A stretch of DNA of 38,684 nt from a virus. The stretch lies in the IMG/VR virus record IMGVR_UViG_3300013132_000104, positions 1 through 38,684 of that record. One strand, 5' to 3'. The notes below the pieces were generated by a model. It was not told the origin of the DNA, made no database searches, and was given only the letters and a program-made list of their open reading frames with translations. A program made the translations under genes and the position numbers. Below, one piece after another: positions 5,016-27,651 of this stretch. Every line of letters begins with the position of its first letter. Position 1 is the first letter of the stretch.

Positions 5016-8000
5016 TTAGGCAGAAAATTGAGCGCCCGTAGGAAGTATGTTGAAATCGAGGATAATGAATTCAGCAGTACGGGTTGGTTGGATATAGATT
5101 TGACCATATAGAATATTTCTATCTATCAAATCTGGCGTATTATTTTGCTCATCCATTTTGACTTGGAAGGCATAAATACCATTTCTTTGTTGTACCGATT
5201 CCAAGTATGGATTTACGATGCTTAAGAAACGATTTCTTGTAGAAGCAACATTTTGTTCGAATACCAAGTAATTGCTGCTGCTTGCGATAAACTTCTTCAA
5301 GTTGATTAACAAACGGCGAACATTGATACGATCCAGAGCACTTGGAGCAATTTGAAGAGTCTTTTGACCCCAAACTACGATACCTTGGCCTGGGAATGCT
5401 GCGATAGGATTTACACGACCTTCATAGAGTGTGTCACGTTCTGCGTGTGTTACTCTATCAAGTACTTGTACAGCTTGTGTGATACCACCACGGTTTAAAC
5501 CGGCTGGAGCGTACCATTCAGCAGCAGCATTGTCGTTAGCAGCATAAACTGCTGGTAACACTACACTTGGTGGTACACTGATTATCTTGTTGGTATTTGT
5601 GTCCAAGATTTTAACCCAAGGATAATAAGTTCCAACATAATTACTATCAATTGTTGCCACGCTATTAACTGCGGCATCAATCAATCCAACAGTTTGATTA
5701 CTTGCTGGGAACACTACGTTATCCATAATATAGAAACAATCTTGACGAGTTTCACACATGTTGATTACCAAATCGGTAACATAACTGTGTTGTTCACGGA
5801 AGATGCCTGGAGTAACGATCAAGTTTATATCAAATTCATCTGGATTACCGATTGCGGCAACTGCTTGCTTGTAACCGATACTACCTGGACTATTGATATT
5901 TGTACAATCTAGACCTTGTGTATTACCTGCGGTAATGCTGCTACCAACGTTGATTGGAATTGCTGGCCATTGACCATCAAATCCACCTTGGAAGCCCAAT
6001 ACGAACTTACGAAGTCTTACATAAGTAGATTCGTTAACTGCATCATATGTACTAGGAATACTACCACTCAAGCTTGGAGCGAGTAATGAACCAGTACTTG
6101 CAGATACGCCTTGAGCATAATATTTAGCAGTTGATGTACCATAAACTTTATCCTCAAGATCAAAGTCAATATTCACACCATTACTGTCGGTGCTTCCAAA
6201 ATATGGAAGTGGTTTGAAATATTGTTTTGTATCATTTTCAACACCAACACCAAATGAACTGGTTGGATATAGGTATTGTATTTCGGTACTTGATTCTGGT
6301 ACAGATCCAAAGACGGTACCAGATGGATATTTACCAGGAGCTAATCCGTAAATACTTGCTTTACTGTATTTAACAGCGGGTATATAAGTACTTACGGTAC
6401 TATCAACTGGTGTGTAGTAAGATTCAAATCCGTAAGGAACACAAGTACTTGGATAAGCTATATCGTTCATTTCGATTCGGATATAACGACTTAGATTGTT
6501 ATAATCTCCGAATTGTATAATTTTACCGGCATATGTGATATATGCGTATCTATCACCAATTTTACGAGCAACATAATTTGCGCTATCGGGATCAAGATTA
6601 CAATTCTGGAATATTTCCAAATATTTAGGCTTCTTATCGGTATCACTGTATGATCGTACAGCAAGTGTGAATGTACCCCAATCACTACCTGGAACTGTTC
6701 CAGCCAATTTAACATTGCTTATTTCAATCTTATACTTTTGGTTAGATGGTGTACCATCGCTTAAAGTATGAATCTTAAACAATTTAAACTTTGTAGGAAC
6801 CGCAGCTTCATTTGCGCTGCCTTTGAATGGAGCTATCTTTTGGCTATATACCCACGGCGTATATGCATTTGTAATACTGAATTGACTGTCTCCAGCATTT
6901 AAATTTGTACTATATTGATCAACAAACTTAAGAGGTTCGCCTACTATAGTACTACCAGAGAACGTATTGGTTGCAACTTGTAGTCTCCAACCCAATGTGC
7001 TGGTTTTTTCAGCTACGAACTTCTTGATACTGTCTTCAAATAGTACGTAGTTATAAGCAGCTTCTACTTTTTGACCAGCAATTTGTTTAGAAGGATTTCC
7101 AACAGTAGGATCTATACCGAATACGTCTTTGATGTAATTGTTGTCATTTTCATTCAAAGAGAAGTCGTAGTATCCATACGTACCACTGGATGTTGAACCA
7201 TCGGGGTTAGCAAAGTTATATTTAAGTGCAAGATTATATACGTTTTCATTTGGATTAACAAGATTTTTGTATGGGAATACACTACTTGTTAATTGTGACA
7301 ACGTTGACGTATTAAATCCATATACTTCATAATCATTACTAAATTGTGTTGAAGCATTTTGAGTATTTGCTAATACAGCCAAAATCATTTTTTGACGACC
7401 GGTTGTACTTGGATTACATGGATCGCTTCCAGGGGTATCTTGGTTTGTAAATGTACCATTGTATTTACCAAATGCACCACTGATAGCACCTTTTAGTTGT
7501 AGCCCTGCGACACATGTGCCTGATCCACGAACTGATGCAAAACTACCACTTACCAACACAGGAGTACTTGTGGAGTTGAATATATCAACATTATAATCTA
7601 TATTTGTATTTGTCAAATATGAACTTGAGAGTAATGCCGATGTTGTAGTACTTTCGGCAAACGCTGTGGATACAGATGTTTCAGCATCTACACTTTGACC
7701 TTGTACACTTGAAGTCAAAAAGTAATAAGGACTTACTGCACTTGGGGCTCCTTTTTTAGTCAACACTATTGGTCCAATACCGCCAATATTGATTTGTTGA
7801 CCGGAATACAATATACTTCCGCTTAAAGTTCCTACACCTGATACGGTAGATGCGTTAATATTACTTGTTGCAGCTACGGATCCAAATTTAACATTAATAG
7901 ATCCACTCAATGATATTCTGGAATTATCTACACGGAATTCATAACTTCCAGTGGCTTTTGTTAAATCATATGTAACTGATGAAAAGTTGGTAGCTTGACT

Positions 8001-8942
8001 TACAGAACCTTTGGCAAACACTAAACCGTATACAATGTTATTACCGCTTAATGTATATGAAGCGGTTAAGTAACTTAAATACGTTAAAGCGGTTGATCTT
8101 GGAGCGGTATTTTGTCCACCAGCGACTGAACCGAATCCGTTTGTATCAAACAAAATCGATTCTGTAGTACTTGCACTTGAAGAAATTGATCCAGAAAAAC
8201 GTGATTTTTCAAAATCGAATGCAGCTAAGCTATATCCGGAGGTTTTACCCAACGTGAAGTTACGTCGTGCGACGGATGATGTAAATGCGTTATAATAGTT
8301 TTGAGTAGTTATTTTAAGAACTTTACCCAAGCTTGCGGATGCAGCCAATGATGCACTTAGAGCGCTGTAATTGGAAAGTCCTTGAATTGTTGATAAAAAC
8401 GATGATCTTTCACTAACGGAAGCTCTAGTTACCGAGACTAATGTGTTTAGGTTTCTAAACTGAGAACTTCCTGCTCTACTACCAGATGACAACAATACTG
8501 AACTACTGTGTTGGTAGTTTATATTTGTTGTATAACTTGTATCGTCTAGATACATGAACGAAGAAGTTGTAATTGCGCCAACATCGTCATTACGATTCCA
8601 TCTACCTGGTTGTGCGTATACAAATAGTGGATTTTTTTGCCAATAGCCAGTTAAACCGCCGATACGAACAACTGTTACGATACCTTGTTCTTGTAGATAT
8701 TGTTTAGCGGTGTATGGACCATAATAAATTCCATCTGCGACACCGAATGAATTTTCTAATGTAGCTACATCGGTAATTGTTTTTGGAAAAAATGCGGGTC
8801 CATCTGCGAATGGAGCTAATATAGCTCCACCTATGTTAGCGACACCTTGGGCTAAGCCCGATAGGTCATTTTCTCTGGTAAATACACCAGGACTTACTAT
8901 ATTTTGTGTTGGAGCGAATGTTCCTCCTTCTGTAATTGGCAT
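5016..8942 (-). CDS. Contractile tail sheath protein, about twice the usual length
   Basis: The N terminus (GGTFAPTQNIVSPGVFTREN, then AILAPFADGPAFFP and VTVVRIGG by about residue 95) and the C-terminal domain (YEGRVNPIAAFPGQGIVVWG, ALDRINVRRL, QVKMDEQNNT, ending near AEFIILDFNI) are those of the T4 gp18 sheath family, which forms the contractile tube around the tail. The product is 1308 residues against about 660 in T4. The extra length lies mainly between about residues 105 and 530, a Ser/Thr/Ala-rich segment with predicted strands, probably surface domains. The gene has its own upstream element and a strong terminator, fitting high expression. Base composition looks less AT-rich than the glycosyltransferase genes upstream. 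AAAGGA before the start is the only convincing Shine-Dalgarno sequence in the window. Confidence 0.95.
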   Translation of the reverse strand: MPITEGGTFAPTQNIVSPGVFTRENDLSGLAQGVANIGGAILAPFADGPAFFPKTITDVATLENSFGVADGIYYGPYTAKQYLQEQGIVTVVRIGGLTGYWQKNPLFVYAQPGRWNRNDDVGAITTSSFMYLDDTSYTTNINYQHSSSVLLSSGSRAGSSQFRNLNTLVSVTRASVSERSSFLSTIQGLSNYSALSASLAASASLGKVLKITTQNYYNAFTSSVARRNFTLGKTSGYSLAAFDFEKSRFSGSISSSASTTESILFDTNGFGSVAGGQNTAPRSTALTYLSYLTASYTLSGNNIVYGLVFAKGSVSQATNFSSVTYDLTKATGSYEFRVDNSRISLSGSINVKFGSVAATSNINASTVSGVGTLSGSILYSGQQINIGGIGPIVLTKKGAPSAVSPYYFLTSSVQGQSVDAETSVSTAFAESTTTSALLSSSYLTNTNIDYNVDIFNSTSTPVLVSGSFASVRGSGTCVAGLQLKGAISGAFGKYNGTFTNQDTPGSDPCNPSTTGRQKMILAVLANTQNASTQFSNDYEVYGFNTSTLSQLTSSVFPYKNLVNPNENVYNLALKYNFANPDGSTSSGTYGYYDFSLNENDNNYIKDVFGIDPTVGNPSKQIAGQKVEAAYNYVLFEDSIKKFVAEKTSTLGWRLQVATNTFSGSTIVGEPLKFVDQYSTNLNAGDSQFSITNAYTPWVYSQKIAPFKGSANEAAVPTKFKLFKIHTLSDGTPSNQKYKIEISNVKLAGTVPGSDWGTFTLAVRSYSDTDKKPKYLEIFQNCNLDPDSANYVARKIGDRYAYITYAGKIIQFGDYNNLSRYIRIEMNDIAYPSTCVPYGFESYYTPVDSTVSTYIPAVKYSKASIYGLAPGKYPSGTVFGSVPESSTEIQYLYPTSSFGVGVENDTKQYFKPLPYFGSTDSNGVNIDFDLEDKVYGTSTAKYYAQGVSASTGSLLAPSLSGSIPSTYDAVNESTYVRLRKFVLGFQGGFDGQWPAIPINVGSSITAGNTQGLDCTNINSPGSIGYKQAVAAIGNPDEFDINLIVTPGIFREQHSYVTDLVINMCETRQDCFYIMDNVVFPASNQTVGLIDAAVNSVATIDSNYVGTYYPWVKILDTNTNKIISVPPSVVLPAVYAANDNAAAEWYAPAGLNRGGITQAVQVLDRVTHAERDTLYEGRVNPIAAFPGQGIVVWGQKTLQIAPSALDRINVRRLLINLKKFIASSSNYLVFEQNVASTRNRFLSIVNPYLESVQQRNGIYAFQVKMDEQNNTPDLIDRNILYGQIYIQPTRTAEFIILDFNILPTGAQFSA

Positions 8943-9004: not shown

Positions 9005-11767
9005 CTATTTATTATACTTTTTATCTATTTTATAACCAGCGAGAATTATTTCTGTATAATAATCTGAATTTGTCCAAAAATATTCTGTTATATCTACACC
9101 ATCTACAGAGAATAATCTTACAGATAGATCCGAGTCGGTACACAAAGTCTTTACAACCTCATAAAATTTTTGTCTATCTATTTCACCACCAAAGTGAATT
9201 TCTCCGGCGAATTTATAGACGTGTTTTTTGAACAGTTCGTAATTTTCTTTTAATATCGAATATTCATGTCCTTCAATATCAAACTTCAAAAAATCTATAT
9301 CTCTATTTACCAATTTAATTAAATCCTCAAATGTCATTGTCATCGATTTTTGTGTAATATTATTATGAAACATCGATTCGAATGTACAAATATTACGATT
9401 GGATCCAATCAAAGCGTGCAATAATAGTGGATTTTTATCTTCGTTTAAATTTTCCAAGAAATCTTTTAGACAATCAGTACTACCATCAACTCCAATATAT
9501 TTTATATTTTTGTCACGATGCTTGAAATAAAAATATCCTTTTGAACAACCTAAATCAACTACAACGTCTTTATTTTCGACCGTTACAAATTTATCATATT
9601 GATTCCATTCAAATATTTCGGTATAAGCAAAATCGTCAAAATTTGATTTTTTTGATAATTTATCGGCATTATGTATATTATCTATATACTTCTTAACCAT
9701 CTCAAATGTTATCTGTTTACTACATTCAAAATGTCGATTTGTGTTTTTATATTTAGGACACCAATTCCAATCACCACCGTCAAATTTATTGTTTATGTCA
9801 TTCCAACATCCATTACACACACTTTCGTTTATAACTCTATATGGTGTATAAAATTCATTAAATTTCTTTGTAAATCCGCTTATTAGTAATACTGGCTTTT
9901 TTAAACACCATGCTAACCAAGAAAGTCCTGAACTTAAACCAACAAAAAATTCACAGTTATATAACCACGTTAATGCTTCTTGTATATTTTTGGTTTCTGG
10001 ATGAATAACATTATTTAGACCGTGCAAATCCATATAATTCAGTGGTTCTTTTTGTAAAACAACAACTTTATAATTTAATGAATTTAAATAATCTACTACT
10101 TGTTGCCATCCATCTTTATTTTGCCAATGTTTACATCCAGCAGTTGACGCTGTAGATATACACACATATTTTTCATTTAATTTTGAAGATGTATCTTCAA
10201 TAACAATGTTCGGTATAATTTCTATATAATCCAAACCTAAAATTTCAGCAGCTACTTGTTGTAAATTTTGTGTTCTGTAATCTTTAGGAGATTTTGTTCT
10301 ATCAGCAGGATCAAAACATCCGATTCTATAAGTAGCATGATATTTTTTATCAATTGATTCGTTGTAATTGTAAAAATTAATATCTTTATAATTTTTTTCA
10401 AATAACTGTTTATTTGGTGTATAAAAATCAAGTAAACAATTATGTTTTTTTCTAAATTCATCTACATATGGCATCCACGCTACATAATCACCTAAACTTG
10501 GAGATTCATTGATAATTCGAACCAATTTATTGTTTAAATTATTATTATATGTAAGTTTGGAGTTTGTATCTAACTTCAATATCTCAATCTTCCAATCGAT
10601 ATAGTATTCTATTGAAGTAGATGACCACATGTTGTTACTTATAAAGCTATCATACAAAACAATGTTGGATTTATTATCTATAAACTTTAAGTTATATTTT
10701 TTATCAAGTGGACCTGTTATTTCAACTTTACATCCCTTGTTAACGTCGATTGATAGTTTATTAGTTTCTTCAATACAATCTTTATGATTGATCACGGTGT
10801 TTTTGTAAATGTCTATTAACTGATTTTTCATGCTTTTTCCCGAATTATATATAGATAATAGTTTATTAGTGATATTTTTCCAAGATAATTTTTTGACGGT
10901 TTCCTCACAGTATTGTTGGTACTCTGAATAATTTTGTATAACGATCTTTAAAGAATTAACAATATCATCAACATTTCTATTAATTTTCAACAATCCTTTT
11001 AAATCGTTGTTATTTTCAAATGTTCCAACTATAGGCAATCCACAACTCATTGCTTCTAATAATGTTAGATTAGGATGACCTGCTTCTAAAATAGATGGAT
11101 GTAAAAATATAGTATGATCTTGATATAAATTTACCAATTCATTTTCGGTAAGATCATACACTACATTTAGTTTGTCATAATCAAAGTTGTGTTTTTCAAA
11201 AAATTTTTTATTGTTGGATGGACCAGCAATTGTTATTGGTAGATTTAAAATCCTAGCCGCTTCAATCGCATAACTAAATCCCTTTCTGTCTTCCGATGCA
11301 TCGTGTATAAAACCATTGTTTGCTACACATAACAATTTATGGTGAACTAATATTTTATCTGTTTTTTTGAATATATCGGAATTTACACCATGACTGAGAT
11401 ATTCTAAATTTGGTAGATCAAAATAATCGACTAAATATTTTGCCGGTACAAACGATTTTATCGAATGTTTAATAGCATCATAATTTTCTTTAAAACATAC
11501 GGAATTTTTTCCATATAGATAAGCATGGTGGTCATGACATGTAAAATAATACGGTATGCCACGTTCTTTAGCTATTAATGCCAGATTTGCCACGTGTATA
11601 TGAACTATGGTATCTTTATCATAGGTAACATCATCTAAATATTGTATTTTCGAATCGTAATTATATTTTGTAAAATTTTGATGATATTCCCATATTATTT
11701 TCTCTGTTGCGCCCCATCCATTGGGCGGTATAGGTAGTATACCGGGATTCACGTTAACGATTTTCAT
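9005..11767 (-). CDS. Three-domain glycan enzyme: GT4 glycosyltransferase, TibC/BAHT-like protein heptosyltransferase, FkbM methyltransferase
   Basis: I start at MKIVNVNPG (11767), one base after the upstream stop; an ATG at 11776 would add three residues. Residues 1-310 are a GT-B glycosyltransferase of the GT4 type (GWGATEKIIWEY near the start, LHPSILEAGHPNLTLLEAMS at 222-241). Residues about 340-700 match the autotransporter O-heptosyltransferase family: an accessory strand domain (FISNNMWSS), then SLGDYVAWMPYVDEFRKKHN, and an iron-finger Cys set at C651, C654, C670, C682 (CNGC ... WCP ... ECSK). Residues about 730-920 are an FkbM-type SAM methyltransferase (VVDLGCSKG, FLKFDIEGHE). The chain could build, attach to Ser/Thr and methylate a protein-linked glycan. 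It is the last gene of the cassette, just before the sheath. The acceptor protein is inferred only. Confidence 0.88.
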   Translation of the reverse strand: MKIVNVNPGILPIPPNGWGATEKIIWEYHQNFTKYNYDSKIQYLDDVTYDKDTIVHIHVANLALIAKERGIPYYFTCHDHHAYLYGKNSVCFKENYDAIKHSIKSFVPAKYLVDYFDLPNLEYLSHGVNSDIFKKTDKILVHHKLLCVANNGFIHDASEDRKGFSYAIEAARILNLPITIAGPSNNKKFFEKHNFDYDKLNVVYDLTENELVNLYQDHTIFLHPSILEAGHPNLTLLEAMSCGLPIVGTFENNNDLKGLLKINRNVDDIVNSLKIVIQNYSEYQQYCEETVKKLSWKNITNKLLSIYNSGKSMKNQLIDIYKNTVINHKDCIEETNKLSIDVNKGCKVEITGPLDKKYNLKFIDNKSNIVLYDSFISNNMWSSTSIEYYIDWKIEILKLDTNSKLTYNNNLNNKLVRIINESPSLGDYVAWMPYVDEFRKKHNCLLDFYTPNKQLFEKNYKDINFYNYNESIDKKYHATYRIGCFDPADRTKSPKDYRTQNLQQVAAEILGLDYIEIIPNIVIEDTSSKLNEKYVCISTASTAGCKHWQNKDGWQQVVDYLNSLNYKVVVLQKEPLNYMDLHGLNNVIHPETKNIQEALTWLYNCEFFVGLSSGLSWLAWCLKKPVLLISGFTKKFNEFYTPYRVINESVCNGCWNDINNKFDGGDWNWCPKYKNTNRHFECSKQITFEMVKKYIDNIHNADKLSKKSNFDDFAYTEIFEWNQYDKFVTVENKDVVVDLGCSKGYFYFKHRDKNIKYIGVDGSTDCLKDFLENLNEDKNPLLLHALIGSNRNICTFESMFHNNITQKSMTMTFEDLIKLVNRDIDFLKFDIEGHEYSILKENYELFKKHVYKFAGEIHFGGEIDRQKFYEVVKTLCTDSDLSVRLFSVDGVDITEYFWTNSDYYTEIILAGYKIDKKYNK

Positions 11768-11768
11768 A

Positions 11769-12770
11769 TTATACATTTTTGACTTTTGGAATTACTCCAC
11801 GCTCTGCTAAAATTCTACATTGTTCAATAGTCGTGATATTGATATTTTTATTTAATTTCTCAACACCATTTACTTTTATACGTATATTTTTATCATTTGA
11901 ATCGATATCAAAATAATGCTTGTAATATAATCCTTTACTAATTACACCATCAAAAACCGTAGAATTGTCTATTAATATTTCGAATCGTTGGCCCATATTT
12001 GAATATAAAAATATAAGTGGATGTTTAGGATTTTCTATATTATATACTATACTATATTTCTGATCAAATATTTGAAACAAATCTATAATACTATTGGAGA
12101 AATATTCGCTTGCTTGACCATCAAAAAAGTATATTTCATTCGAAACATGTGAGATCATATGTACAAAAATAGATTCTAATATTTCATAATTAAATGCGAA
12201 CGGATATGTTTTGCACCACTCATCAAACGATTTTACCAATGGTACATTTTCTTTAAAGAATCGTATATCACCCGCAAACATAGCTGTCTGATGTAATACA
12301 TGTCCAAAATTAAACTTCTGATTGCTCAGATAAAATATGAAGAGTTTTTTTCGATGATTATCTATCGTTGTAAATATGTCATTGATTTTCGGAATATCGA
12401 TCTCTGAAAGATCGTTGTCATATTCCGTAAACAAAAACTTTTCATATTTATTTAACCTATACAAAAAATTTATTGCCAAGTAAACGTTTTTAATAATAGC
12501 ATACCCATGTCTACATGAGTATATATTTATATATTCATTTTCGTCCGCAAACCAGGTTATTGGACTCATTGAGATAGGCAATAAGAAATTTTCTTTATCG
12601 TATATTAAATAATTGACCTCTTGTAAAATTTCATCATCTATAGGAGTGTGTGATGTCAACAAAATATCATTGCCGGTCTTTTTGAGTTGCTTTATATATT
12701 TTAATAAAACGTCTCTTTTTTCCGTCGTATTGATATATGAATTTATTATTATTACATTTTTTGAATACAT
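11769..12770 (-). CDS. Glycosyltransferase-like protein (GT-A-like, DND motif)
   Basis: The 333-residue protein starts with a Rossmann-like strand (KNVIIINSYINTTEKRDVL), then DILLTSHTP at 35-43 and FLFTEYDND at 112-120, where DND could be the metal/nucleotide-sugar DxD motif of GT-A enzymes. Residues 240-310 form an accessory strand domain (HPLIFLYSNMGQRFEILIDN) like those beside the transferase domains of the flanking genes. It belongs to the same family as the proteins at 12772-13458 and 15186-16103, and the same domain starts at the end of the 13548-14585 product. It probably transfers a sugar in the cassette; donor and acceptor are unknown. Its stop overlaps the next gene's first possible ATG. 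Confidence 0.72.
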   Translation of the reverse strand: MYSKNVIIINSYINTTEKRDVLLKYIKQLKKTGNDILLTSHTPIDDEILQEVNYLIYDKENFLLPISMSPITWFADENEYINIYSCRHGYAIIKNVYLAINFLYRLNKYEKFLFTEYDNDLSEIDIPKINDIFTTIDNHRKKLFIFYLSNQKFNFGHVLHQTAMFAGDIRFFKENVPLVKSFDEWCKTYPFAFNYEILESIFVHMISHVSNEIYFFDGQASEYFSNSIIDLFQIFDQKYSIVYNIENPKHPLIFLYSNMGQRFEILIDNSTVFDGVISKGLYYKHYFDIDSNDKNIRIKVNGVEKLNKNINITTIEQCRILAERGVIPKVKNV

Positions 12771-12771
12771 G

Positions 12772-13458
12772 TTATTTAAATGTAAGTATACCTCTAGATG
12801 AGTAATACTTTGTTTTATTGGGATCGAAGGTGATTTCTAATATATGGGATACTTTGGTAGGCGAATCGTGTATGTGAAATAAAACTTTGAACTTTTTACA
12901 AACGGTTACATCTTCTATCTTTAATAGAGGAATTATATCTGAAAATATCATTGAATTTTTAATAAATACATCATTTTCATATACATCTAAATTATATACT
13001 ATTTTGTCAAGTGATTTTACACATAAATAAAAATCATTATTGTTAACAACGATGTATGCTCCGACAGAATTAACTCTAGACAAATTTAAATGTGACGGCG
13101 TAGAGAAAAAATTGTGAAACCTGTTATTAACTATTTCTATATCCGATTTAAATCTTTCTATCATTCTAGAAAAGAACAATTCCAATCCGTATGGAACAAC
13201 CGTCGAAAATTTAGAATTATATTCTTGTAGAGATCTAGGAAAATACGAATCCAATAACATCAATAGAAACGATGGATTTGATATAAAAAATATAGTTTCA
13301 CAAAATGACCCATCCTCCAAAAAAACAGCTTTTTTATTAGGGTATTTATATAATTTATACAATAAACTTAAAATCTTATTGAGATCTTGGTCAGTATATA
13401 AGTTGTCAAATTCTGTAAATACACATTTATCATAACCGAGAGATTCCGCCAGATACAT
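12772..13458 (-). CDS. Glycosyltransferase-like protein lacking its N terminus; probable 3' part of a frameshifted gene
   Basis: The 228-residue reading frame has the later half of the cassette's GT-like family (YLAESLGYDKCVFTEFDN aligns with the DND region of the 11769-12770 protein) and an accessory strand domain at the end (LFHIHDSPTKVSHILEITF). The family's first strands are missing after this ATG, but the same frame stays open upstream to 13578 and encodes family-like sequence there (NYDVILSTYP, SHEYCIISSLRNAM). The preceding gene ends at 13548 in another frame after starting the same domain. This looks like one gene split by a frameshift, or a remnant. As an independent gene it would be a truncated transferase. 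Confidence 0.6.
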   Translation of the reverse strand: MYLAESLGYDKCVFTEFDNLYTDQDLNKILSLLYKLYKYPNKKAVFLEDGSFCETIFFISNPSFLLMLLDSYFPRSLQEYNSKFSTVVPYGLELFFSRMIERFKSDIEIVNNRFHNFFSTPSHLNLSRVNSVGAYIVVNNNDFYLCVKSLDKIVYNLDVYENDVFIKNSMIFSDIIPLLKIEDVTVCKKFKVLFHIHDSPTKVSHILEITFDPNKTKYYSSRGILTFK

Positions 13459-13547
13459 GGCATTTCTCAGAGAACTTATAATACAATATTCGTGACTTTT
13501 TATGTTATCATCGGGGTATGTTGACAGGATTACGTCATAATTAGTTG

Positions 13548-14585
13548 TTAAATGTGTATAAATCGTATGAAACTGATATCATTATATGTATTGTCCCTAT
13601 CATATATGTAGAATTCGACCAATTCAATGATGCTCTTGGGTAGAATGCTATGTGATACCAATATCACATCCAATTTAAGTTTTTTTAAAATGTAGATGTT
13701 ATTTTTTAATATATCTAATTTTTCATTGTTGTCGATATAACAATCAATAACGACGCAATTTTTATTTTTCTGATCACTGTTCATATAAGTAGAACATTCT
13801 TTCATATCATCTATATTTTTGAAAGCGTGATATCCTAAAATATGATCAGAATCGTGGACTGTCTCCCAATCGAAATTATTACAATCTAAACATTCACCGA
13901 ACGAAAAATCACGAACAAAATTTTCTTCGATAAATTTCACCTTACTAACGGATATAGTATTTAAAAATGCATGTCCTAAATTTTTAGTAGCGTTTCTTTT
14001 CCATAAACATACATTAAAAGGAGTTTCGTCTTGACTAGGAAATATTTTTTCTTTCTGTTTTAGTAAATATTCATTCTCACACATAGATTTCCATTCTTCT
14101 AAGAAATCTATACATTTATTATTAAATACAAAAAAACAATTCCATACATATCTCATTGTTCTCTGAGGTACATTGAAATATTTCATCAGCAATGATTCTG
14201 TATATACCAATCCACCTACATATTCATATATACATGGATATTCAACTGGACCATAACTTGCTAGAGGATATTCTTCGTCGTGTTTTAATTGATCAAAATT
14301 AACCTTCTTTGATAATATAAAATCGATATCAATATAAATATAATGGGTGTCAGCATATAATTGTGTTGTTAATAGACATAGATCTGGTTTGTAAAAGTTT
14401 AATTTGTAATAATTTTTATTAGTGATATATTCGTGTGGTGTTACATTGTTTAATTTTACATCACTTTTAAAGTTAATTGTGTAGTATATGACTTTTACAT
14501 CATCAACAATTTTACTTTGAAATGATTTTATACATTCAATAGCCTGAGCCTCATAATTTTTATCTGAAAATAATATTATTGTCAT
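13548..14585 (-). CDS. GT-A-type glycosyltransferase with a cut-off second GT-like domain
   Basis: The start at 14585 (MTIILFSDKNYEAQAIECIK) overlaps the upstream stop as ATGA and is preferred over an ATG 36 bases earlier. Residues 1-270 look like a GT8-type glycosyltransferase: YADTHYIYIDIDFIL at 77-91 holds a DxD (D86, D88), followed by GPVEYPCIYEYVGGLVYTES and an HAFKNIDD near the end. From 277 a second domain begins (CVVIDCYIDNNEKLDILK ... DVILVSHSILP), the N terminus of the cassette's GT-like family, but the frame ends after about 70 residues with FIRFIHI. The rest of such a domain follows in a frame shifted by one base. The first domain looks complete and could be active. Confidence 0.75.
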   Translation of the reverse strand: MTIILFSDKNYEAQAIECIKSFQSKIVDDVKVIYYTINFKSDVKLNNVTPHEYITNKNYYKLNFYKPDLCLLTTQLYADTHYIYIDIDFILSKKVNFDQLKHDEEYPLASYGPVEYPCIYEYVGGLVYTESLLMKYFNVPQRTMRYVWNCFFVFNNKCIDFLEEWKSMCENEYLLKQKEKIFPSQDETPFNVCLWKRNATKNLGHAFLNTISVSKVKFIEENFVRDFSFGECLDCNNFDWETVHDSDHILGYHAFKNIDDMKECSTYMNSDQKNKNCVVIDCYIDNNEKLDILKNNIYILKKLKLDVILVSHSILPKSIIELVEFYIYDRDNTYNDISFIRFIHI

Positions 14586-15184
14586 ATAATTTGAACTACG
14601 CCTATGCCACACGATTGACATCCCGATGTAAATTCATATGTGATCGGATATTTGTTTTTAATTTCATTCCATAGAGTTGCAACGTAACAGTTATATTGGC
14701 GGTGTATTGGTGTATCTAATATGTCGTGAAAACCTATATATCCTCCTTGTATTACAAACTCTTTATACATTTCAAAATCAGATTTCACACCTTCATATGT
14801 ATGATCGCCGTCTATAAAAATAAAATCGAGTTTTTCTTCCTGCAAAGTAGCGGATAGTGTGTTTTTTACATCCATAGAATGTGAGTCTCCGGTTATCAAA
14901 ATTACGTTTTGTGCGAGCTTCTGCATTTTGGTAACAACGCTTCTTTTTTTCATCTCTTCCTCTTGGCCTGTATAAAATGGGTAATCTATACTTATCTTTT
15001 TTCCGTATAAATTTGATAATTTACACATGATACTAAACATACCGCCCATGTACGTTCCTATTTCAAGAATGTTTTTACAATGCAAATTACTATAGAATTT
15101 AGCGAATGGATACAATTCATGATACATTTGCATATATCCGAACTCTTGTGTAGATTGTATGATTAGATTGTCAATATTTGTCAT
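14582..15184 (-). CDS. Class I SAM-dependent methyltransferase
   Basis: The 200-residue protein has motif I ILEIGTYMGG at 39-48, an acidic strand SIDYPF, motif II-like ILITGDSHS at 95-103, and LDFIFIDGDHTYEGVKSDF at 119-137, the pattern of the Methyltransf_24/macrocin O-methyltransferase-like group, where the D-G-D-H segment often binds a metal. FHDIL lies further along. It likely O-methylates a sugar or small-molecule hydroxyl, which fits its place between glycosyltransferases. It abuts the upstream gene by one base and overlaps the downstream ATG (ATGA), so it is translated as part of the cassette. Confidence 0.85.
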   Translation of the reverse strand: MTNIDNLIIQSTQEFGYMQMYHELYPFAKFYSNLHCKNILEIGTYMGGMFSIMCKLSNLYGKKISIDYPFYTGQEEEMKKRSVVTKMQKLAQNVILITGDSHSMDVKNTLSATLQEEKLDFIFIDGDHTYEGVKSDFEMYKEFVIQGGYIGFHDILDTPIHRQYNCYVATLWNEIKNKYPITYEFTSGCQSCGIGVVQII

Positions 15185-15185
15185 A

Positions 15186-16103
15186 TTATTTAAATTCTAT
15201 TATTCTGTTGGATGATATGTTCAATACATTTTCTTTAGAAACTACGCCGCTTATTTTTTTACAAATCACTTTATTCTCTTCGATAAAGATGGAGTAATCA
15301 AAGTTATGATTCGATACATCAAACCAATCTATATAAAAATTATTCGGGGGCAAATCAATTACAAAATCTGTAGATTTAGTACTGATTACGTAGTATTTTT
15401 TAATTTTATCGGAATTATTAACTAATACAATATTATGTATATATTTTTCTTTTTTGTTATAGAATATACCACTGACATCATATTGATATGTACGGTGAAT
15501 AATTTCGTCGGGCGTTGTATTCACGTTGACACGTCCGATGTTAATATTTAAATTTATATTGTCGGTCAAATACTGTTCTTTATTCGTAATAGTCGAAAAA
15601 CTGTGGGTCGGCAATATGTTTAAAAACATATTTATGTTACCATATACCAAATTTAAATCAAATTCACCGTTTCTTTTAAAGAAGTTTACGGTATTTAATT
15701 TACTTTCGTCAACCAATTCAAATATTTTTTTGACACATGAGTAGTTGTTGATGTCTATAAATAGAAACGATGTATAACCACAAGAGTTTGCAAATTGTAA
15801 TGATTTTTTCAACAACAAAAACTTACTATAACTATGTGTCTGATTTATATATGAGAGTTTAAAAGATCCTACATCGGTCCATCCAAACGGAGAATTAAAA
15901 AACGTTTTATTATCATCCGCTATATTTTTATCGAATAAAAAATAGTCGGTCATATCGACCAACGTATTTTTACATGGATAGTGTGATGTCATTAAAATAT
16001 CATATTCGGATTTGTAAGCTGATGCTGCTAATAAATCACTGAATATTTTTTTCGAATTGTATTCGACATCATCCGTACCGTATAATAACAATAATTTTTT
16101 CAT
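15186..16103 (-). CDS. Glycosyltransferase-like protein, degenerate DxD
   Basis: The 305-residue protein has the same layout as the other GT-like cassette members: a first strand (KKLLLLYGTDDVEYNSKK), EYDILMTSHYP at 33-43, a helix SLQFANSCGY and FLFIDINNYS at 113-122, where the DxD position reads D-I-N, so the metal site may be weakened or inactive. The C-terminal third is strand-rich (NFYIDWFDVSNHNFDYSIFI). It starts within the stop of the GT4-FkbM gene (4-base overlap). It could be an active transferase with an altered motif or a non-catalytic partner. The function is inferred only from family resemblance and context. Confidence 0.65.
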   Translation of the reverse strand: MKKLLLLYGTDDVEYNSKKIFSDLLAASAYKSEYDILMTSHYPCKNTLVDMTDYFLFDKNIADDNKTFFNSPFGWTDVGSFKLSYINQTHSYSKFLLLKKSLQFANSCGYTSFLFIDINNYSCVKKIFELVDESKLNTVNFFKRNGEFDLNLVYGNINMFLNILPTHSFSTITNKEQYLTDNINLNINIGRVNVNTTPDEIIHRTYQYDVSGIFYNKKEKYIHNIVLVNNSDKIKKYYVISTKSTDFVIDLPPNNFYIDWFDVSNHNFDYSIFIEENKVICKKISGVVSKENVLNISSNRIIEFK

Positions 16104-18010
16104 AAAACTGATTTGCGTGCGTAGAAAAATCCTAAATCTTCTTGAAATTGAGGATCGTCGTTGTTTGTAATTTTATAACCTAATGACTCAAATCGATTTA
16201 CTATTTTCTTAATATTTTTTGTTTTTGCCCAATGATATTCTATAATATATCTCGATGATTTAATAATTTCGTCGTCAGTCATACTGTCAATTACATCATA
16301 TTCTATACCCTCGATGTCAATTTTAATCAAATCTACTTTTTCTATGTTTTCTTGTTTCATAAACATAGGAAGTGTAGTTACATCTACATCTTCATCCGTC
16401 ATATTATGATGTGTATAAGGGTGAACATCATGTAAAAAGCCACTTATAGTTGAATTATCATTATTAACTTTAATTGTTGATTTTCCGATAAAATTATGTA
16501 TTGCCAATTTTTTGGTATAGACGTTAGGTGTATCTTTTAATAGATGTGATAGTTGATCAAATGCTTTATTTGTAGGTTCTATACAAAACAACTTCTTACA
16601 ATTTTTCTGGATCATGTAAAGTGAAAACAATCCGACATTTGCTCCTATATCAACTACAACGTTTAAATCATTCAAATCACAGTGTTTATATATATTTTCG
16701 TAAAACATTTGTTTATAATTAATATATAAACAATCGAACGGATTAAATTGTTTATTAAGTATCACTGGATTATAATCTAATTCACGAATTTTTAATACTT
16801 TACTATGTATTAATTTTTTGTCTAAAGAATAAAATTCGATTATAAATTCACTAAAATATGTTTCTTTGTTAAAATCTACGCTTCCTATAGGTATGATATA
16901 GTATCCATTTGATTTAGTATAATCTAATTCCGTAAAATATATTGGTACTTTCGTATGATTATCACGCACCGATACAATTGTTTTGAACGGCGGACCATCA
17001 TTCAAAATATGAATAATATTAGGCGATTCAAACCATATATTTAAGCTTAAAGAATTATTTGGTAAAAACGATTTAATCAATTCTACATTTTTCGATAAAT
17101 CATCCGCCAACCATTTAATATTATTATATTTATCATACATACCTAAATATACAGGTAAATTGTACATTAATATAGGCATATTCCAACCAACAGCCTCTCT
17201 TATGACTAGAGGATTTGTTTCTTTATCAGTTACCGTACCTCTGGATGTAAATAAAAATACATCCATAGCATTGTAAAATGTATCGACATCTTTTCTCTCT
17301 CCCCACCACTTACAATTTGACGGAAAATCTTTCATCAATGGTTCCCAATACCATTTAAAATTATCTGCTTGATTTCCGACGAAATGAAATTGTATAGGAT
17401 ATCCAATTAATTTTCTTGCATATTCTATTATTTCTGATTGGTTTTTTCTTGATGTAAATAAACCCACATTCAATATATGAATTTTATTCGGATCCAACCC
17501 CATATCAATCAGAGATGTGGTCCTATCTTTTTTAGATTTATATTCAATTGGATATTCTACTATATCACTGGGTATATTTAACTCAACAAACATCTGTTTC
17601 TGATATTCACTTACAAATATGAATCTATCAGGAAAATATCTTTTTGTAGATACATCAAAACTACTATCATGAGAAGTTTCTATAATTTTATATCTTCTAT
17701 CAGAAACATATATTTTGTCCGAAACTATATTCTCACAAAAATATTCCGGTAACTCTTCAAAATGAATAATATCTGGGTTGATATTATTAATATGATCTAT
17801 CAACTCCAATTTATTTTCGTTTAACGTAATTAGCTTATTACCCAATATTTGTTCTATTTGATTTCTTTGTACAACAAGAACTCCACCTGTGACATTACTG
17901 TACTCTACACAATATATGTCATTTTCATCAACCAACTCTTGTATTTTTTTAAGCAAATATTGTGGACCTCCGCCAGTCGATAGATGTGGCGTAATAAAAA
18001 GTATTTTCAT
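16100..18010 (-). CDS. GT4 glycosyltransferase fused to FkbM-family methyltransferase
   Basis: I start at MKILFITPHLSTGGGPQYLL (18010), one base after the Rad50 stop; the longer frame to 18040 would overlap the recombination gene. Residues 1-310 are a GT-B, GT4-like transferase (GGGPQYLL, HILNVGLFTSRKNQ, DVFLFTSRG, ETNPLVIREAVG near 264-275, the acidic donor-binding segment). Residues about 325-420 form a strand-rich accessory domain (FESPNIIHILNDGPPFKTIV). Residues about 445-636 are an FkbM methyltransferase with VVVDIGANVGLFSLYM near 451-466 and LIKIDIEGIE near 561-570. The same order, GT, accessory domain, FkbM, recurs in the 9005-11767 protein, so the two frame the cassette. It is expected to extend and O-methylate a glycan. 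Confidence 0.87.
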   Translation of the reverse strand: MKILFITPHLSTGGGPQYLLKKIQELVDENDIYCVEYSNVTGGVLVVQRNQIEQILGNKLITLNENKLELIDHINNINPDIIHFEELPEYFCENIVSDKIYVSDRRYKIIETSHDSSFDVSTKRYFPDRFIFVSEYQKQMFVELNIPSDIVEYPIEYKSKKDRTTSLIDMGLDPNKIHILNVGLFTSRKNQSEIIEYARKLIGYPIQFHFVGNQADNFKWYWEPLMKDFPSNCKWWGERKDVDTFYNAMDVFLFTSRGTVTDKETNPLVIREAVGWNMPILMYNLPVYLGMYDKYNNIKWLADDLSKNVELIKSFLPNNSLSLNIWFESPNIIHILNDGPPFKTIVSVRDNHTKVPIYFTELDYTKSNGYYIIPIGSVDFNKETYFSEFIIEFYSLDKKLIHSKVLKIRELDYNPVILNKQFNPFDCLYINYKQMFYENIYKHCDLNDLNVVVDIGANVGLFSLYMIQKNCKKLFCIEPTNKAFDQLSHLLKDTPNVYTKKLAIHNFIGKSTIKVNNDNSTISGFLHDVHPYTHHNMTDEDVDVTTLPMFMKQENIEKVDLIKIDIEGIEYDVIDSMTDDEIIKSSRYIIEYHWAKTKNIKKIVNRFESLGYKITNNDDPQFQEDLGFFYARKSVL

Positions 18011-18011
18011 T

Positions 18012-21000
18012 TTATTTATATATGACTTTACTAAATCCATTTTCTTTTTTTATTTCGATCTGATTGTCAACCATGTCTCTCATTTGATCCAAGTGACTAA
18101 TTACCCAAATAAAATCAAATTGATTTTTTAAATAACTAAATAAAGCTCCCATCTGCCCCAAATGATCACTGTCAGCACATCCAAATCCTTCATCTATTGC
18201 TAATATATTCGGACGTGGTAAATTACTGATATTAATCAATGCAACTCTAATAGCCAATCCACTTATGAACTTTTCCATTCCACTAGCCATCTCAAGTGGC
18301 CATCGTTTGTCATCATACACAATATTTGTCATAATATTCTTACCATCAGTCTGTAATGTTACACTAAACTCTACAACCTGATGTAGAATGTTATTTACCT
18401 CTTTTTCAATCTCAGGAAGAGTCTTGGTAATAATTTCATAAGGTATACCATCTCTGCTTATTATATTTGTATACAACTTATAAGATTCATATTGAGTTTC
18501 AAGTTCCTTGACTTTATTTAGTTTATCCAAAGTACTTTGATATTGAAAATCTAAAGTACCTTTTTGTGTAGAAGCACTGAATAAATTGTTATTGATTGTC
18601 TTAATTGTGCTTTCAATACTTTTGATGTTTGATTTAACACCATCGATCTCAACAATTAACTTGGAGTTATTTTCTATAATATCTTTGTTCTTATAAAAAG
18701 TATCAATGTGTTTTTCAACAGTCTTCAACTTATTTTGAAGTGTGATTAGATTATTCTCATTTTGTAAAACGATGCTATTGATTGTACTCTTGTTTTTTTC
18801 CAAGGTTAATTTTTCATTATTTAACTGATTACATTTAGTATACAATGTTTCAACATCTCCACATGCTTCTAGATTAGTCTTGATGTTGTTAAACTCTCCA
18901 ACAATAACCGTCGCTTTTTCTTTGTCTTGATTCAACTCCTCTTTAGTTTTAATAGCATCTTTGACAAAGACATTGTTTACACAATACGAACAATTAGGAT
19001 CATATTTATGACCTTCAAGTTTTTTCAACTTATCAACTTTATTCTTGATGACTAGTTTAAGCGTGTCAATTTCTTTTTCTTTATCGTTATACTTTTGTTT
19101 CCAAGACTTGTACTCTGTATAACGAGTCTCAATATCATCACACTCGGATAAAGAAGAACTCAAATTATTAAGTTTATCCTCCACACTCTGTAGCTTTATT
19201 TTTTGAGTAGCAATATCGTCATTTACTTTGGTTATTTTAACATCTAAATCTTTCTTTTCGGTTTCTAACTTTGTTATATCAAAGTCAAAGTTGTCGGCTT
19301 TAATAATATTGTTGGACAATTCAAGTAATTTGTTGCTAAATTTCTCTTTCTCAATTTCACAATCTTTGATTTGTGATGTATAACTCGTAATATTGTTATT
19401 ATTGGTGGTTATACTTGCAGTGACGAAGGTTAACTGTTGTTCCAACTCGTCTTTGCTTGAGTTTTTAAGCAGTGTATTAATTTCTTTATAGTTGTCATTC
19501 GCAATAGTATACAGTTGATCAAACAAGTTAAGTCCCATGAATTGACACAATAGATCTTTTCTTTCTGTTTGTCCCAAATCAATAAATGATCCAGCTCTGT
19601 TGTTCTGAATGCTAAGAACAGTTAATATAAAATCTTCATATGAACCAACATAATCTCTAATGATATCGTTGGTGCTTCTACGAGCTTCACCGTTTAAAGG
19701 TACTTCATTTCCTTTATCAATCTTATAAAACTTGACCTCAACTTTTACATTGCCTTTTTTGTCAGCTTTACCTTCTCGTTCAATAAAGTAGTCTACTCCA
19801 CTTACTTCAAAGTTGAATTTACACTTGAAACTCATTTTTTGAGTGTTCATTACATGACTAGCCTTAAATCCTTTGCTGAATTTATCAAATATACAAAATG
19901 CTAGTGCATCCATAATGCTAGATTTACCGCTAGCATTTGGTGCAAACAAACCGATAGTACCTTTTAACTTGGTAAAGTCAATGTAGTTACCCTCACCATA
20001 ACTAAACATATTATCAAATTCAAATGTCTTAGGCTTCCAGCGAATGTTCTTTGGAGCTTTATCTTTGGCAATTTCTTTATTGATAGTTTTGTTGAGTTCT
20101 TTAACTTTCTCAATTAAAACTTTTTCGGTGTTCTTAGAAACAAGATTGTCTTCAATTAGTTTGTTCTGATAATCTACATCTAAAATGTTATGAATATCAA
20201 ACACTTGACCATTTTTAAGCGTCAAATCTGCTTCAGCTTCATCCACTCGGATAAATGTTGACTCTAGAATCTCACATTTATCCTTAATATCATTCATCAC
20301 TTCTTTTACTTGTGATGGAATAGACTCAAAACACTTGGTACGAATACGAGCTTTCTTAGGAATCTCGGAAATATCGGTAACCAATTTACCCTTACTAATT
20401 TCTACAGTAAAATACCCATATTCATTCTTTAGTTCATAATGTTTGAATACTTTACGCTTTAAATCCCACATCAAGAAACCATGGCCCTTGAGTTCTTCGC
20501 CATGATTTTGTTGAATTAATGATCCGCTATAAACTATAACTGGTTTTTGGTCGTTTTCATTATACTCTTGAAGAATTTGATGTTTGTGAATATCACCCAA
20601 CATCGCAATATGGTGACCATCAAACAATTCGTTAGTAATTGCACGATTACTTACAGTGTATCCAACATCAGTGACGGCATTATTTACAGGTCCATGAAAC
20701 AAAGCGATATGATGATCAGTTGTATGTAGATACTTGGAAGGAATATCCTTATAACGAATATATTTTTCAGAATCATCAAATACGCTAAAGTTGTTGAATA
20801 GTATATTTTCATATCTATACACCTGACTTTCTTTTAGATAATGTAAGTTTGGATGATTCAACGCTTCTACGATTGGAGTTAAACAATCCAAACGAGATTT
20901 GTTTGCGAGAGTAGCATCATGATTGCCAGCAGTCAATATAGTGGGAACACGATCTGCGCAATTTTTTAGAAAATCGCTGCCAATTTTTACACATTCAGGA

Positions 21001-21197
21001 CTTAAATCGCTTTTATTATGAAATATATCGCCTGCTATAACTAATACAGAACTTAAAGTTTTAGCTTTATCAAGAGATTGGTAAAATTTCTCAAATACTT
21101 CAGTATATTCTTCATGTCTCTTTGTTAATCGAATGTGAATATCTGCAATATGAACTACTGCATGTATTTTTTTATCTGTATTTTTAATTAATATCAT
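18012..21197 (-). CDS. Fused Mre11-Rad50 (SbcD-SbcC; T4 gp47-gp46-like) recombination nuclease-ATPase
   Basis: This 1061-residue chain joins two proteins that are normally separate. Residues 1-380 are an Mre11/SbcD phosphoesterase: HIADIHIR (D19, H21), AGDIFH (D57), TAGNHD (N92, H93, D94), LFHGP (H168), GDIHKH (H204, H206). From about 387 a Rad50/SbcC ATPase begins: FSYGEGNYIDF, Walker A GLFAPNASGKSS (K425), long coiled coils about 560-910 broken by a zinc hook PNCSYC (C736, C739), an ABC signature ASGMEKF at 971-977, Walker B ILAIDEGFG (D1002, E1003) and H1035. The complex resects DNA ends for recombination-dependent replication. The gene overlaps the primase by 4 bases. Confidence 0.95.
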   Translation of the reverse strand: MILIKNTDKKIHAVVHIADIHIRLTKRHEEYTEVFEKFYQSLDKAKTLSSVLVIAGDIFHNKSDLSPECVKIGSDFLKNCADRVPTILTAGNHDATLANKSRLDCLTPIVEALNHPNLHYLKESQVYRYENILFNNFSVFDDSEKYIRYKDIPSKYLHTTDHHIALFHGPVNNAVTDVGYTVSNRAITNELFDGHHIAMLGDIHKHQILQEYNENDQKPVIVYSGSLIQQNHGEELKGHGFLMWDLKRKVFKHYELKNEYGYFTVEISKGKLVTDISEIPKKARIRTKCFESIPSQVKEVMNDIKDKCEILESTFIRVDEAEADLTLKNGQVFDIHNILDVDYQNKLIEDNLVSKNTEKVLIEKVKELNKTINKEIAKDKAPKNIRWKPKTFEFDNMFSYGEGNYIDFTKLKGTIGLFAPNASGKSSIMDALAFCIFDKFSKGFKASHVMNTQKMSFKCKFNFEVSGVDYFIEREGKADKKGNVKVEVKFYKIDKGNEVPLNGEARRSTNDIIRDYVGSYEDFILTVLSIQNNRAGSFIDLGQTERKDLLCQFMGLNLFDQLYTIANDNYKEINTLLKNSSKDELEQQLTFVTASITTNNNNITSYTSQIKDCEIEKEKFSNKLLELSNNIIKADNFDFDITKLETEKKDLDVKITKVNDDIATQKIKLQSVEDKLNNLSSSLSECDDIETRYTEYKSWKQKYNDKEKEIDTLKLVIKNKVDKLKKLEGHKYDPNCSYCVNNVFVKDAIKTKEELNQDKEKATVIVGEFNNIKTNLEACGDVETLYTKCNQLNNEKLTLEKNKSTINSIVLQNENNLITLQNKLKTVEKHIDTFYKNKDIIENNSKLIVEIDGVKSNIKSIESTIKTINNNLFSASTQKGTLDFQYQSTLDKLNKVKELETQYESYKLYTNIISRDGIPYEIITKTLPEIEKEVNNILHQVVEFSVTLQTDGKNIMTNIVYDDKRWPLEMASGMEKFISGLAIRVALINISNLPRPNILAIDEGFGCADSDHLGQMGALFSYLKNQFDFIWVISHLDQMRDMVDNQIEIKKENGFSKVIYK

Positions 21198-26535: not shown

Positions 26536-27651
26536 TTAAAAATCTATGCGGACGCGAATCAATAATTCGTTATCAAATGATTTTTGAGTTGGTCTACTTA
26601 GTTTTCCAATAGCCAACAATTCGTTATTGGCGTCATACAAACCAACCGTAGTTATATATGTTTTAGGATTATTTATTAAATCTTGATATATAATTGTGCC
26701 TTTTGTTTTACCATCTGTGCCATCTGAAACAAATGTAGGATTGTTGCTGTAATTATATTCTTTATTTTTAACACGTATAAAGTAATTTGTCGAAGGTACG
26801 AACTCAGATTTTCTAATTGCCATGTTTTTATTTGACAACTTGATACTTAAATAGAATTTACGAATCCAATCTCGCCAATAACCTTTAAACGCTGTAGAAA
26901 ACTGATTGGATGTTCTGGTACTGGTTATTTGTACAGATCCACCCCCTATACTTGTAATACCAACTTTACTATCCAATTTTATAGCATTTAGTATTACAAC
27001 GCCGTTTGATGGATAAAATAAACCAATTCCTTCGTAATATGCACTAACTGTTCCACCTTTTGTATATGGAGTAGCTACACCGTTTATAACTGATCCAGAT
27101 ATCAAATTGTAAACATTTTGTTGAGTATTTAGAACCTGTGAATCGTCTATATAAGAATATTGACCATTTGCGCCACTAAAATTCAATTGTATTTGACCAG
27201 GATCTATTTGATCTTGGAATTTGTCTGCTACATAGTTCATCGCAAATATAGCAGAACTGTCAGTGGGAGTATCCACGCTGCCAGACGCAAAACTGAAAAA
27301 TGTATCGCCGGGTTGCAATAAAGTATTTTTATACTGTGTATAAACCACTTTAGTTTCATTTGTTAATACTTGGGTGGTATTTCCAGTCCAATCAAATTTA
27401 CTACTGCCGGAATTATAAAAATCTCCATATGCTACTGAAAAATATTGAGTGTCACTACTATACACGTCCAAATAATATTGACCATTTTTAACATCATATG
27501 GCGATGATCCGGTTAAAGTATTTGCTTGCGTTGATGATGTGACAAACGAAGATTGTACTATTGTTAAACTACCCGTGCCAAACATACCAGAAGATACTTG
27601 ATTTATTCTTCCGGCTACAATATCATCTTGTGAAAAATTTGTAAAAATCAT
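26536..27651 (-). CDS. Probable tail structural protein with YITTVGLY C-terminal module
   Basis: The 371-residue protein is rich in Ser, Thr, Gly and Asn. Its last 40 residues (YITTVGLYDANNELLAIGKL, then SRPTQKS ... LIRVRIDF) closely match the end of the 872-residue propeller protein. This ending is known to me from uncharacterised structural proteins of large T4-like environmental phages. It lies four bases after the previous gene and belongs to the baseplate/tail transcription unit. Its exact place in the particle is unknown; a neck, tail tip or fibre-attachment part is possible. Confidence 0.75.
   Translation of the reverse strand: MIFTNFSQDDIVAGRINQVSSGMFGTGSLTIVQSSFVTSSTQANTLTGSSPYDVKNGQYYLDVYSSDTQYFSVAYGDFYNSGSSKFDWTGNTTQVLTNETKVVYTQYKNTLLQPGDTFFSFASGSVDTPTDSSAIFAMNYVADKFQDQIDPGQIQLNFSGANGQYSYIDDSQVLNTQQNVYNLISGSVINGVATPYTKGGTVSAYYEGIGLFYPSNGVVILNAIKLDSKVGITSIGGGSVQITSTRTSNQFSTAFKGYWRDWIRKFYLSIKLSNKNMAIRKSEFVPSTNYFIRVKNKEYNYSNNPTFVSDGTDGKTKGTIIYQDLINNPKTYITTVGLYDANNELLAIGKLSRPTQKSFDNELLIRVRIDF

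Follow-up and report, generated by a model that had tools for sequence, protein, structure and literature searches.

The window, which is the whole stretch of DNA analysed here, is an IMG/VR virus record of 38,684 bases, a 38.7 kb fragment. It belongs to a contractile-tailed phage encoding a large terminase, a sheath, baseplate wedge proteins, a primase and a fused SbcD-SbcC protein. Microcystis phage Mel-JY01 (PP395634) was the nearest cultured relative in a sheath search (43% for the sheath and 58% for the terminase). A scan of the window for tRNA and Rfam features found none. The gene at 23023-25641 encodes 872 amino acids with FG-GAP repeats that probably form a beta-propeller; a motif near the C-terminus (TTVGLY...) recurs in the protein encoded at 26536-27651. 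A cassette of predicted glycan-building genes lies at 9005-18040 on the minus strand, where the gene order is SbcCD, g7, g6, g5, g4, g3, g2, g1, sheath. The cassette, its borders and the main domain discussed below are as follows.

5016-8942, minus strand: tail sheath, 1308 aa; downstream cassette border and candidate acceptor
9005-11776, minus strand: g1, 923 aa; GT4 (about 1-317), BAHT/TibC (336-708) and FkbM-type methyltransferase (about 725-915) domains
9647-10771, minus strand: BAHT domain of g1, residues 336-710
11769-12770, minus strand: g2, 333 aa; GT-A-fold glycosyltransferase-like, without a Pfam match, with a C-terminal beta domain (about 238-310)
12772-13458, minus strand: g3, 228 aa; C-terminal piece of a split g2-type domain (profile positions 109-310)
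13548-14621, minus strand: g4, 357 aa; N-terminal part without a Pfam match, followed by the first approximately 60 positions of a g2-type domain
14582-15184, minus strand: g5, 200 aa; class I methyltransferase (Methyltransf_24/CmcI-like)
15186-16103, minus strand: g6, 305 aa; diverged member of the g2 family
16100-18040, minus strand: g7, 646 aa; GT4 and FkbM methyltransferase
18012-21197, minus strand: fused SbcD-SbcC-like protein; upstream cassette border

The SbcD and SbcC homologues at the upstream border form a single fused protein of 1061 amino acids (18012-21197). Open reading frames overlap at 18012-18040, 16100-16103, 14582-14621 and 11769-11776. The first-pass annotation had described seven consecutive, mostly overlapping genes; the seven reading frames and four overlaps are real, but they represent six genes, one of which (g4/g3) is split. 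A megablast search with the cassette against public phages returned no match. GC content is 36-40% in the sheath region (5016-8942) compared to approximately 28% in the cassette.

The protein encoded by g1 matched the BAHT profile TIGR04414 with 335.6 bits (E 3.3e-100; curated cutoff 200), and the TibC crystal sequence matched it with an E value of 7e-62. The flanking domains also scored above their gathering cutoffs, with matches to GT4 (PF00534, E 9e-11; Glycos_transf_1 42 bits, cutoff 26.4) and to FkbM (PF05050, E 4.5e-8; 33.8 bits, gathering cutoff 22.7), the latter falling under the NCBIfam fkbM cutoff. In an AlphaFold model of g1 (mean pLDDT 85), residues 338-708 superimposed on TibC (4rap) with a Z score of 41.4 and an rmsd of 2.3 A over 365 residues. 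The modeled BAHT domain includes the TibC-type N-terminal beta-barrel, and the GT4 part has a GT-B fold that matched GT4 enzymes with Z of approximately 27. In TibC, Asp110 is the catalytic base, Thr226, Lys230 and Trp305 are donor residues, and Cys339, 342, 358 and 370 form the iron finger (PMC4358343). These align with D430, T545, K549 and W620 of g1, and with Cys654, 657, 673 and 685, so that the iron-finger cysteine set noticed in the first-pass annotation is complete. Among 102 aligned sequences Asp110 was conserved in 100, Trp305 in 102 and Lys230 in 93, and the catalytic residues are kept in g1 at 36-59% identity to its relatives. By alignment g1 is therefore a BAHT homologue whose predicted catalytic chemistry is conserved apart from the contact to the base.

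That contact is made in TibC by Arg286, which touches the adenine ring and is described as highly conserved across the BAHT family; substituting it leaves TibC with little or no activity (PMC4358343). In g1 the corresponding residue is Ala601, within a block that is ungapped through to Trp305. Arginine was present at this position in 34 of the 102 aligned sequences and was replaced in the other 68. In a FastTree phylogeny the TibC clade, in which all members have Arg286, was separate from the phage clade with a support of 0.98, and inside the phage clade the residue was present in some members and absent in others. The C-domain of ADP-heptose synthase (HldE) was not found in the window or in its nearest larger relatives, and more distant records gave two sub-cutoff matches to this domain. 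These results weaken the earlier proposal of a heptosyltransferase that transfers heptose. Because Arg286 is lost, that label goes beyond the evidence and the donor is uncertain; g1 was for the same reason not classed as an autotransporter heptosyltransferase.

Four of the remaining reading frames (g2, g3, g4 and g6) matched nothing in PHROGs, NCBIfam or Pfam, save for one weak PHROG match to g4. A profile search identified g2, g6 and the C-terminus of g4 plus g3 as paralogues, with the g4 tail spanning positions 2-62 and g3 spanning positions 109-310 of the 321-position g2 profile. Since these pieces are complementary and the DNA between g4 and g3 reads on in other frames, they are best read as one gene rather than two, broken by a predicted frame change at approximately 13540-13580 that is either real or an assembly error. 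The N-terminal part of g4 contains a DxD-like motif, IDID. An AlphaFold model of g2 (mean pLDDT 80.8) adopts a GT-A fold with matches to both GT-A enzymes and sugar-nucleotidyltransferases (Z 14-15), which supports its prediction as GT-A-fold glycosyltransferase-like, and Asn61, Asp118 and Glu199 are nearly invariant in the family. The g2 family was represented in 30 of the 70 non-redundant BAHT loci, and its members are frequently joined to GT4 or BAHT in a single protein. For g5, the match to Methyltransf_24 had an E value of 8e-16, and g7 matched both Glycos_transf_1 (37.4 bits, cutoff 26.4) and FkbM (PF05050, E 1.6e-17; 64.6 bits, gathering cutoff 22.7). The domain set first read from the sequence (GT4, GT-A-like, class I methyltransferase, FkbM and BAHT) is thus borne out by profiles and, for the GT-A fold of g2, supported by the AlphaFold model.

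No strongly hydrophobic stretch was found in any cassette protein (best 19-residue means of 0.9-1.6), so that all of them fit cytosolic enzymes, and Pfam and NCBIfam scans found no flippase, polymerase or ligase in the cassette. These features bear on the usual reading of phage glycosyltransferases, in which a cassette modifies host surface glycans such as LPS, capsule or S-layer and thereby blocks superinfection, as GT4, GT-A and FkbM proteins are generally typical of polysaccharide loci. Pelagimyophage glycosyltransferases near tail-fibre genes have been interpreted in the same way (PMC7029224). In this case, however, the anchoring enzyme is of a protein O-glycosyltransferase type, the missing membrane and polymerization functions argue against a lipid-linked surface glycan, and there is an association with collagen-like structural genes, described below. 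The cassette could act on host molecules, but this reading appears unlikely. Glycosylation of phage DNA as protection against restriction is extremely improbable; hypermodification of DNA by such phage enzymes is known (cited in PMC12619734), but the characterized relatives of BAHT act on protein, no base-modifying enzyme was found among the scanned proteins of the 38.7 kb window, and the context is one of structural genes.

Close relatives, collected by a sheath-core search, differ in what lies immediately before the sheath gene. In two of them, L106 (a 134 kb contig whose sheath core is 95% identical) and L107 (92%), the sheath gene is immediately preceded by a divergent GT4-BAHT cassette, although in L107 a single short BAHT-like gene separates the two. 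In L108 (sheath core 89%) and L111 (82%), SbcCD is followed directly by the sheath with no cassette. The insertion between recombination genes and sheath was therefore correctly recognized in the first-pass annotation, and these two contigs show the empty slot; whether related phages keep the cassette beside the sheath has a mixed answer, true for L106 and L107 but not for L108 and L111. A cassette co-oriented with and upstream of the sheath also occurs in the L017/L018/L019/L025 and L066/L070/L072/L073/L077 lineages. Fourteen viral loci contained a sheath gene as well as a BAHT; the latter was upstream on the same strand in every one and no more than four genes away in 12. Recurrence of a BAHT cassette in the same slot of independent contigs indicates that the arrangement is not due to chance, and the divergent versions, or none, found there in close relatives indicate that the cassette is accessory. 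It is an accessory module that has been renewed at the same site.

Other variation was evident around the sheath gene. A shorter second BAHT-like protein of 270-281 amino acids often follows the GT4-BAHT protein, directly before the sheath (L017 5180-6025, L107 6641-7486). The sheath reading frame of L105 (1-2753) is broken somewhere from residue 858 to residue 923, and the other proteins of this contig are 99.6-100% identical to those of the window. On the far side of the sheath, between it and x257, the window contains a homing/HNH endonuclease gene (3113-4900) that is absent at that place in L107 and L108, with a related gene nearby in L106 and L018. Its patchy distribution among close relatives suggests that it is probably mobile.

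An accessory element may also be cargo that is partly decayed and no longer serves the phage, and the absence of the cassette from L108 and L111 and the splitting of one gene by a frame change are consistent with this. Nevertheless, all other reading frames are open, the catalytic residues are kept at the identities to relatives given above, and divergent forms of this set of enzymes have come to occupy the slot again, which together make decay very unlikely.

The position of the cassette directs attention to the sheath itself as an acceptor. Residues 111-1000 of this protein form a large Ser/Thr-rich insertion (14.4% Ser and 9.3% Thr), and the BAHT enzyme could glycosylate the Ser-rich insertion of the unusually long sheath encoded next door, resulting in a sugar-coated tail. 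Consistent with this, the cassette is directly upstream and co-oriented in the window, in L106 and L107, and in the L017- and L066-type lineages. However, a long sheath of this kind is also encoded by L108 and L111, which lack the cassette, and the Ser/Thr content of the sheath does not follow the cassette, relatives that carry it showing no higher values than those without it. Furthermore, a sheath gene was nearby in 14 of 70 BAHT loci and most were without one, and the BAHT of Mel-JY01 is approximately 23 kb from its sheath. Ser/Thr enrichment was accordingly rejected as proof that the sheath is the acceptor, cassette-free relatives being equally rich, and we regard the sheath as an improbable main target. 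The suggestion that the phage glycosylates its own tail stands in part: the sheath is Ser/Thr-rich but is not the favoured acceptor, and the commoner partners are giant Ser/Thr-rich collagen-like proteins.

A profile search with the phage BAHT domain found relatives in at least 585 viral contigs, and five phage records were matched in a g1 protein search. If the proposed reading is correct, it would also caution against the use of the name autotransporter heptosyltransferase for hundreds of phage proteins. Collagen-like genes were defined as Ser/Thr-rich with at least 20 consecutive Gly-X-Y triplets. The 70 non-redundant viral loci with a BAHT included 33 with such a gene within approximately 10 kb, and the 78 BAHT-free sheath loci included 3 (Fisher p 2.7e-10); the control loci were centred on the sheath gene and were shorter on average, so that neither these controls nor the record sizes are a perfect match. 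Per 100 kb there were 3.3 collagen-like genes in BAHT loci and 0.36 in controls, approximately a nine-fold difference. In seven long records with both genes, BAHT and collagen-like genes were closer than random positions (combined p 0.007), the exception being the closest long relative of the window, in which collagen-like genes are approximately 30 kb from the BAHT. Collagen-like genes were present in seven of eight BAHT-bearing long records and 4 of 14 BAHT-free records (p 0.024), which were chosen by size and kinship and are of unequal lengths. Their presence in four BAHT-free records indicates that neither partner needs the other. Strict next-gene adjacency was in weak excess, with 10 cases observed against 5.4 expected (p 0.026).

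No collagen-like gene was found in the window, but the window is a 38.7 kb fragment. Its closest long relative, G001 (the record of L106), encodes a collagen-like fibre protein of 1912 amino acids and 36% Ser that matched PF01391 with 671.9 bits and a Peptidase_S74 chaperone domain with 37.4 bits. The latter domain is typical of phage tail fibres and spikes. Across 10,114 collagen-like triplets, position X was 61.6% Thr and 25.8% Ser, position Y was 63.9% Ser and 24.3% Asn, and Pro made up less than 1% at each. Both a BAHT and a collagen-like gene are carried by the isolated Microcystis phage Mel-JY01, which makes a proposed glycosylation of such fibres directly testable. At the start of that record (L005, PP395634.1 1-3052) a plus-strand frame of 1016 amino acids, whose beginning is cut off by the end of the record, matched the collagen profile PF01391 with 220.6 bits. 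Two minus-strand hypothetical genes are annotated there instead, and a fibre gene was probably missed.

In cellular genomes, BAHT genes adjoin the genes for their substrates (PMC4358343). A classical pair is found in Acetobacter (L100), where a strand-loop-strand-type repeat protein is encoded directly upstream of the BAHT. Nine non-cassette proteins of the window, itself an incomplete fragment, gave no strand-loop-strand or AIDA match in NCBIfam. Pairs of BAHT and collagen-like genes also occurred in three loci of the genome collection whose BAHT belongs to the phage clade, namely L090, which is chromosomal in Methylobacter luteus (4.5 Mb contig; the two genes approximately 40 bases apart), and two contigs from metagenome-assembled genomes, L089 (Arenicellales) and L097. 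At L090 (4908-7110) the gene before the BAHT encodes GTAGTSG repeats preceded by an N-terminus with a hydrophobic segment, a non-phage version of the pairing.

Taken together, we favour, with a probability of approximately 0.5, an accessory module whose enzymes act in the cytosol and O-glycosylate Ser/Thr-rich proteins of the phage tail, with collagen-like fibres as the most likely acceptors and the sheath second. Protein O-glycosylation was among the functions first put forward for this cassette, and its application to virion proteins is the best supported. Most of the catalytic machinery of the BAHT-type enzyme is present. The data show the domains, the active-site and iron-finger residues, the modelled folds of g1 and g2, the conserved slot and the link to collagen-like genes; we infer catalysis, donor, acceptor, the order of steps and the role, taking the enzyme steps from the families. 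Soluble enzymes in the infected cell would assemble a short glycan, which may be methylated, on the Ser residues (and perhaps on Thr) of these tail proteins before virion assembly. The BAHT domain of g1 would place the first sugar on protein Ser in the cytosol, as TibC does on repetitive autotransporters, after which the GT4 and GT-A-like enzymes may extend the glycan and the FkbM and class I methyltransferases may cap it. The likeliest acceptors in this phage group would be the proline-poor collagen-like (Gly-Thr/Ser-Ser/Asn)n fibres, and the neighbouring sheath, through its Ser-rich insertion, would come second for the phage of the window.

A sugar on these fibres could take the place of proline or hydroxyproline as stabilizer of the triple helix and could shield the fibre. 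The E. coli prophage collagens that have been tested are Pro-rich at X and were not glycosylated when recombinant (PMC3368898), and the cuticle collagen of the vent worm Riftia contains glycosylated Thr that is associated with stability (Mann et al. 1996, as given in PMC11766948). This analogy suggests that phage sugars may stabilize a proline-poor triple helix. A broader version is possible but less likely than not. In it, a large and so far unrecognized BAHT branch, spread over hundreds of phages (most of them uncultured) and a small number of bacteria, would glycosylate collagen-like fibres that have next to no proline, with sugar in place of hydroxyproline and a donor other than ADP-heptose. 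If true, it would suggest how phages can make very long collagens of Gly-Thr-Ser and Gly-Ser-Ser repeats that nearly lack proline.

Glycosylated virions, glycosyltransferases in phages and the BAHT family itself have been described before. No description of a phage BAHT, of the loss of Arg286, of the GT-A-like companion family or of the BAHT-collagen pairing was found in the literature searched, mostly outside subscription papers. The initial impression that no system with this layout had been described therefore holds for phage BAHT and its pairing with collagen, but not for phage virion glycosylation, which occurs on capsid and tail tube subunits of mycobacteriophages (Freeman et al. 2023, as reported in PMC12619734). 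Glycans on phage structural proteins are established in that system and proposed here, where the candidate acceptors are fibre and sheath rather than capsid and tail tube. Riftia collagen and the glycosylated collagen BclA of Bacillus (cited in PMC3368898) share the Gly-X-Y repeats, and sugar on Thr can stabilize the triple helix; glycosylation of phage collagen is, by comparison, only proposed here. The N-terminal GT4 fold of g1 matches SdgB, which acts on an SD-repeat protein, and TarM (Z approximately 24), but this likeness is at the level of the fold only, and other GT4 enzymes match g1 equally well or better. The closest comparison is to TibC/AAH (BAHT, TIGR04414), with which g1 shares the profile, the fold, the N-terminal beta-barrel, Asp110, Thr226, Lys230, Trp305 and the four-Cys finger, and the gene in both cases often adjoins one for a large repetitive Ser-rich protein. 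Unlike TibC/AAH, the phage enzymes form a separate clade, two thirds of the aligned set lack Arg286, as the window enzyme does, that enzyme is fused to GT4 and FkbM domains, and no strand-loop-strand autotransporter was found in the window fragment. If the proposed function is correct, TibC-type protein O-glycosylation would extend from bacterial adhesins to virions.
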